Shown in pieces: positions 53,095-54,110 of a stretch of DNA of 64,000 bases. How positions within the stretch are numbered: position 1 is the first letter of the stretch; each line of letters starts with the position of its first letter. The translations under genes were made by a program, and so were the position numbers. The notes under the pieces were generated by a model that was given only the letters and a program-made list of their open reading frames with translations, ran no database searches and was not told the DNA's origin. The DNA comes from Salvelinus alpinus (Eukaryota; Chordata; Actinopteri; Salmoniformes; Salmonidae), in NCBI RefSeq assembly GCF_045679555.1, contig NC_092096.1, positions 22,723,211-22,787,210 on the forward strand, given 5' to 3'.

Positions 53095-53176
53095 CCTGTT
53101 CTGTGTATGGCACTGGTAGAATTCACTGTGAAAGCACACTATCAGTGAATTACCATAGGGCCATAAACAGAGCAGA
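53095..53176 (+). ncRNA. mir183: mir-183 precursor
   Basis: The 5p arm at 53106-53127 begins TATGGCACTGGTAG and matches the conserved vertebrate miR-183-5p along its length, as recalled. The 3p arm at 53145-53166 begins GTGAATTACC and continues with AGGGCCATAA. The arms pair around a 17-base loop, and the flanks CTGTTCTGT and ACAGAGCAG extend the stem. The seed is ATGGCAC. It is the first member of the polycistronic sensory-organ cluster on the same strand as UBE2H, as in human. Confidence 0.97.
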
Positions 53177-53409
53177 GAAAGAACCACTGGATGACGCCCG
53201 TCCATTCCTAGAGCTAACTAAACTCTCCCTTGTCTTCTTCTGCTTGGGGTGAATGTGATGTCTCTGTTTCGGGTGGTATGAGTACTGCTATGGATCTTTG
53301 ATTGGGTACCTTTGGGCCTTTGGGATCTTTGTGGGTCAATCGAGCTTTGGTGCGTCCCTCACGACAACCGCATCGACTTGCATTGGGACGTCTCCGCCTC
53401 TGCTTTTCT

Positions 53410-53494
53410 TCTTCGCCCATTTTGGCACTAGCACATTTTTGCTTCTGTATATATGCTTTGAGCAATCATGTGTAGTGCCAATATAGGACAAGAT
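53410..53494 (+). ncRNA. mir96: mir-96 precursor
   Basis: The 5p arm at 53421-53443 begins TTTGGCACTAGCACAT and matches conserved miR-96-5p. The 3p arm at 53463-53484 reads AATCATGTGTAGTGCCAATA from its second base and is complementary to the 5p arm. The seed TTGGCAC governs hair-cell targets. In human and mouse, seed mutations cause progressive hearing loss (established knowledge). The seed is intact here. It lies 0.3 kb after mir-183. Confidence 0.97.
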
Positions 53495-54020
53495 AGATTG
53501 ACGTCGTTTTTTGGGGGGAATTCAACATTCACTGTGTACTAATACTACCTTGTCTTGTCTCCTGCATTGACCGTTGTAGGACTTTGACTTGATTGATCTG
53601 TCTTCTCCCTGCTCTCCTGTCCTGTGTAGGTCATTTTCTATTCTCAGTACAATGGAATCTGAGCCTCATTATCTGAATGGATCAACAGAAAATTCAATAG
53701 ACCAATGGACCACTTTTAAAATATATTCTGCTGACTGCAAGTGTGTGGGAGTCTCGCATGCCATCCCCTCTGAAACCATTCCTTTTAGCATTGACAATGA
53801 TGAAGATGAAAGTCATGGGTTTTTATTGCCTAAACTCAAAAATGTGTATTAAATATAATAGCAGATAGGAGCAGATTGATTCATTGCCTGTACCTTCTTC
53901 CCCCTGTAATAGCCGTGGTTTTAGAGACAATGCTAGACGCAACCTTAAACCATCCATGTCCCATCCATCGGAGGTACTGGTTCGCTTTTCGGACGGACAG
54001 GCCTGGATCGGCCAGGCAGC

Positions 54021-54110
54021 TCTCTGGCGGTGTTTGGCAATGGTAGAACTCACACTGGTGAGGTAGCTGGATCCGGTGGTTCTAGACTTGCCAACTACTG
54101 CTCCAGAGCT
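54021..54110 (+). ncRNA. mir182: mir-182 precursor
   Basis: The 5p arm at 54033-54056 begins TTTGGCAATGGTAGAACT and matches conserved miR-182-5p. The 3p arm at 54077-54097 begins TGGTTCTAGACTTGCC. The stem is extended by CTCTGGCGG and GCTCCAGAG. It is the third cluster member, 0.55 kb after mir-96, more compact than in human, where it lies several kb away. A 37-bp minisatellite begins about 200 bp downstream. Confidence 0.97.

Follow-up and report, generated by a model that had tools for sequence, protein, structure and literature searches.

The window, by which we mean the whole 64,000-base stretch of DNA analysed here (C11:22723211-22787210), carries three microRNA precursor hairpins. Scanned on both strands with Rfam at gathering thresholds, it returned exactly three matches, all full length and all on the plus strand. 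Both arms were found in each hairpin, and the six arm sequences occur once each in the window, also on the plus strand.

53099-53172 (+): mir-183 precursor hairpin, Rfam RF00663, 97.6 bits (cut-off 53), E 2e-22; 5p arm 53106-53127, 3p arm 53145-53166
53413-53490 (+): mir-96 precursor hairpin, Rfam RF00669, 95.9 bits (cut-off 65), E 1.4e-20; 5p arm 53421-53443, 3p arm 53463-53484
54026-54102 (+): mir-182 precursor hairpin, Rfam RF00702, 102 bits (cut-off 71), E 1e-23; 5p arm from 54033 to about 54054-54056, 3p arm 54077-54097

The interval 53099-54102 is almost certainly a complete miR-183/96/182 cluster, and by its position the orthologue of the mammalian one; our near-certainty attaches to its identity. 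The members lie in the order 183-96-182 on one strand and well inside 10 kb, with spacers of 240 bp (mir-183/mir-96) and 535 bp (mir-96/mir-182) and a full span of 1004 bp. Their 5p seeds (positions 2-8; ATGGCAC in mir-183, TTGGCAC in mir-96 and TTGGCAA in mir-182) are those of the Rfam consensus lines. Such 7-base seeds are uninformative alone, since the two strands of the window together contain each of them 9 to 14 times. The 5p arms are presumably identical to the human ones.

These results bear out the core of the original prediction, which had placed hairpins matching mir-183, mir-96 and mir-182 in canonical order on the plus strand, with both arms present in each and all three seeds intact. 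The limits it gave, 53095 and 54110, do enclose the cluster, and exceed the Rfam matches by 4 and 8 bases.

Folding and processing features of the hairpins

Segments of 102-104 nt were folded and each was compared with 200 dinucleotide shuffles. All three form hairpins, as anticipated, with folding energies of -37.5 (mir-183), -34.1 (mir-96) and -43.6 kcal/mol (mir-182) and z scores of -5.62, -4.98 and -2.74 respectively. No shuffle folded as well as mir-183 or mir-96 (0/200 each) and 2/200 matched mir-182, the fold of which is only moderately better than its shuffles. Two spacer segments folded as a control gave z scores of 0.44 and -0.63. Across 6392 plus-strand positions, 10, 82 and 12 equal or beat mir-183, mir-96 and mir-182 in 80-nt folding energy. 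Energy by itself would therefore not single the hairpins out; the family models do.

In the predicted folds, 18/22 of the 5p bases of mir-183, 19/23 of those of mir-96 and 15/22 of those of mir-182 pair with the 3p side. Duplex overhangs, estimated from these folds and the assumed arm ends, come to 1/1, 2/2 and 2/0 nt in the same order, and are thus not a clean 2/2 in every hairpin. The basal UG and the downstream CNNC are optional helper motifs for Drosha. A UG at -14/-13 is absent from all three hairpins; CNNC occurs at +18 in both mir-183 and mir-96 and, nearest, at +15 and +20 (among other positions) in mir-182, close to where it would be expected, though it may turn up there by chance. 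The helper motifs are thus a mixed picture.

Several weaker signals were set aside. Minus-strand matches to mir-96 (45.4 bits against a gathering threshold of 65) and mir-183 (44.1 against 53) are sub-threshold, and so is a minus-strand mir-263 match over mir-96 (19.9 against 51.3 bits). Signals of this kind are expected opposite a good hairpin, and we claim no antisense microRNA. A weak mir-605 match at 55212-55323 (25.1 against 98 bits) is read as chance. The open frame at 53580-53849, between mir-96 and mir-182, is without a Pfam match and is not put forward as a gene.

Neighbouring genes and repeats in the window

Neighbours were placed by tblastn, using human UBE2H and NRF1 protein queries.

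2498..33689 (+): UBE2H coding exons, upstream neighbour; seven pieces covering residues 1-183 except 45
2498-2551, 24230-24307, 28112-28183 and one within 28359-28424 (+): UBE2H pieces 1-4
29004-29054, 33031-33159 and 33567-33689 (+): UBE2H pieces 5-7
62278-62436 (-): NRF1 last coding exon, convergent downstream neighbour; 88.9% over 54 positions, E 2.5e-21

The last codon of UBE2H lies 19.4 kb upstream of mir-183, and that of NRF1 8.2 kb past mir-182. A PDB search with the UBE2H exon at 33031-33159 hit Ubiquitin-conjugating enzyme E2 H chains (E 1e-24), and Pfam UQ_con was seen in two of the three UBE2H pieces scanned, once over the curated cut-off and once 0.1 bit under it. For the exon at 62278-62436 the name NRF1 comes from the human query; a Pfam scan of this exon gave no match, and the two PDB matches to it were both weak and unrelated (E 0.062 and 0.11). 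The next 20 kb of contig C11 (L014, L015) carry another five NRF1 pieces, collinear and likewise on the minus strand.

Human 7q32 runs from UBE2H through a cluster in the same direction to a convergent NRF1. On the exon matches, the arrangement in the window reproduces that layout, and the synteny originally proposed is upheld, with UBE2H on the plus strand upstream and the last exon of NRF1 on the minus strand downstream. The likeness to human MIR183/MIR96/MIR182 at 7q32.2 thus extends to order, strand and both neighbours.

Repeats are abundant around these genes, with tandem arrays totalling 10,898 of the 64,000 bases. A 37-bp minisatellite of 17.3 copies (54313-54948) starts about 210 bp downstream of mir-182. 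Long minisatellites with units of 21-45 bp occupy 10760-11774, 19725-22010, 25147-26006, 26545-27985, 40935-41432, 55877-56844 and 58038-58947, the last of which can alternatively be read with a unit of 89 or 282 bp. Open frames for reverse transcriptase (Pfam RVT_1) at 6428-7468 (+) and 62813-63940 (-) are taken as LINE-type elements; less than 0.4 kb separates the second from the last exon of NRF1. At 44599-45072 (-) lies part of a transposase frame of Tc1/mariner type (Pfam HTH_Tnp_Tc3_2). One short repeat, which we assume to be salmonid, has four matches with three or fewer mismatches, against 0.01 expected. It fits a salmonid source without proving one, as do the genome size of 2.37 Gb and the second layer of duplication described below.

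Three copies of the cluster and their history

A DNA query of 1,201 bases from the window cluster was searched against the 2.37-Gb assembly (928 contigs), which may be incomplete; the search scores nothing beyond its first-look candidates. Three such candidates gave seven matches in all, which fall at three places and include the window itself. A parallel search with UBE2H exon DNA gave three matches from six candidates, again in the C11 window and on C15 and C9.

C9:28034576-28035917 (-): second cluster, from the DNA search; Rfam finds all three hairpins in the same order
C15:41120452-41121531 (+): third cluster, from the DNA search; Rfam finds all three hairpins in the same order
C9:28531184-28531312 (+; L022): UBE2H paralogue, from the exon DNA search
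C15:40714583-40714711 (-; L021): UBE2H paralogue, from the exon DNA search
L009 6030-6605 (+) and L013 9028-9861 (-): pieces of an adenosylhomocysteinase-like gene on the C9/C15 contigs

The search for an ohnologous copy, suggested along with the original prediction, therefore produced two other complete clusters, which would form a recent pair and leave the window copy as the odd one out. The window locus is complete and intact, but it is one of three.

Identities were counted on a three-way alignment. In the mir-183 hairpin they are 72/74 (window/C9), 73/74 (window/C15) and 73/74 (C9/C15); in mir-96, 73/78, 72/78 and 78/79; in mir-182, 68/77, 67/77 and 72/77, giving a range of 87-99% across the three copies. 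The spacers of the window share only 44-48% of aligned columns with those of the other two (98/215, 97/222, 256/530 and 133/286), whereas the spacers of C9 and C15 are 86-88% alike (194/221 and 481/557). Conserved hairpins amid such diverged spacers, seen in the alignment, point to selection on the hairpins. The flanks repeat the contrast. Between C9 and C15, numerous blocks of flank align (58 rows, of which 45 are listed). The last 14 kb of the window shares with C9 only the hairpins and one 80-bp stretch (at two places on C9). With C15 it has in common only the hairpins, a comparable stretch and, at 62.5-64 kb, the reverse-transcriptase element.

UBE2H agrees with this, its exon DNA being identical at 123/129 positions between C9 and C15 and at 113/129 between the window and either of them. 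On C9 and C15 UBE2H sits upstream of the cluster, 0.4-0.5 Mb off, in a direction opposite to the window arrangement. No NRF1 match better than E 0.037 was found in 50 kb of each contig around the C9 and C15 clusters. On their mir-182 side, where the window has NRF1, the adenosylhomocysteinase-like gene converges on the cluster instead. Its C9 pieces, the ones searched, match PDB chains of Adenosylhomocysteinase 3 and of Putative adenosylhomocysteinase 2 with little to choose between them, and the C15 copy is tied to the C9 gene by frame-to-frame similarity. These matches, which do not separate the two, suggest AHCYL1 or AHCYL2. We read the neighbour as AHCYL2, since in human that gene is close to NRF1.

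All three clusters are compact, and this alters how tightness is to be understood. The original prediction had called the window cluster much tighter than the human one, which is correct as a measurement: its span is 1004 bp, and its mir-96/mir-182 gap of 535 bp compares with 4.2 kb (human) and 3.6 kb (mouse) in the review PMC4551935. It is not remarkable, however. The same paper, where it treats spacing, describes mostly shorter distances in lower organisms than in human, sea urchin excepted, so the tightness of the window is the expected non-mammalian state. By Rfam coordinates, the corresponding two gaps are 225 and 853 bp in C9 and 228 and 578 bp in C15.

Judged by divergence and neighbours, C9 and C15 would be a pair from the salmonid duplication and the window copy an older paralogue, an account of which we are less sure than of the cluster's identity. 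The pairing follows from the spacers, 86-88% alike between C9 and C15 while the window resembles them in the hairpins only, and from the matching pattern in UBE2H. A large-block duplication, probably the teleost one, would have separated the window lineage from the C9/C15 lineage, and the later salmonid duplication would then have given rise to C9 and C15. We infer these dates from the data of this one genome. The 1,201-base search found no fourth cluster. It did pick up copies that had diverged to 88-93%, and a recent partner of the window copy should therefore have shown. Neither the cluster search nor that with UBE2H turned up this salmonid partner, which may have been lost, may be unassembled, or may have been missed by the first look.

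A comparison confined to this genome does not fix the date of the older split, and zebrafish is listed with one cluster in Table 3 of PMC3728263. The window lineage could on these grounds have parted from C9/C15 through a segmental duplication that fell after the teleost event and before the salmonid one. We think this rather unlikely, as the duplication took in UBE2H, found on the same contigs as the cluster, and so spanned a large block, and the spacer divergence of the window far exceeds that of the C9/C15 pair. Less probable still is that the window copy looks intact but is silent, the fish drawing every mature miRNA from C9 and C15. As there are two further complete clusters whose 5p arms are the same, such a loss might be tolerable. 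Yet the window hairpins outscore theirs in Rfam (97.6, 95.9 and 102 bits for mir-183, mir-96 and mir-182, against 95.1-96.4, 84.9-86.5 and 85.1-88.8), and they were kept while the spacers diverged past easy alignment, which suggests selection since the older duplication. As for the notion that a stretch so rich in tandem repeats has thrown up these hairpins by chance or as repeat-derived inverted repeats, it is refuted by full-length matches to three different Rfam families in canonical order, with no hairpin inside any listed tandem array, and its probability is vanishingly small.

Predicted mature microRNAs and the possible fate of the copies

From what is known of the family, one primary transcript from the plus strand would span the three hairpins; its cutting by Drosha and Dicer would be followed by Argonaute loading and target repression in sensory cells. 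We infer the transcription, processing, tissue and targets of the window cluster on this basis. Cluster loss harms vertebrate photoreceptors and hair cells, according to PMC6635406 and PMC6303392. In Atlantic salmon, miR-182-5p, miR-183-5p and miR-96-5p have been sequenced and are given as brain-enriched in PMC6356880.

With the arm ends assumed here, the three copies agree at every base in five of the six mature arms. The sole mature difference lies at position 20 of miR-182-3p, which ends CUA in the window and CAA in C9 and C15, and this base could, on the sequences, tell mature reads of the window locus apart. Since the 5p arms are identical, 5p small-RNA reads are not assignable to one locus. 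Asking whether another locus accounts for all reads therefore requires reads of miR-182-3p, of the loops or of the primary transcript.

As an intact fish example of a long-known cluster, the window locus is ordinary and already known in kind. The zebrafish cluster on chromosome 4 likewise has three members in one polycistron (PMC2427041 Table 3; PMC12563060 gives the chromosome only), and is listed as one copy (PMC3728263 Table 3), in contrast with the three found here. The same table places the same three genes together in Atlantic salmon (ssa-mir-183-3/96-1/182), on four draft contigs against the one zebrafish copy; some salmon draft duplicates may, per that paper, be assembly errors. All but six salmon microRNA clusters belong to groups of paralogous copies (PMC6356880, section 18).

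Added here are the arrangement of three copies in this assembly and the single-base reporter in miR-182-3p. Two impressions are also corrected: tightness is normal outside mammals, and 5p reads cannot be divided among the three loci. We speculate, while leaning slightly against the full scenario, that three clusters rather than four were kept after two genome duplications, the NRF1-linked copy losing its partner together with UBE2H and the other branch keeping both of its copies. The window copy may then have taken over part of the expression domain for itself, which a single base of miR-182-3p would make readable. The copies represent a tidy case of the fate of a sensory microRNA locus after repeated genome duplication.
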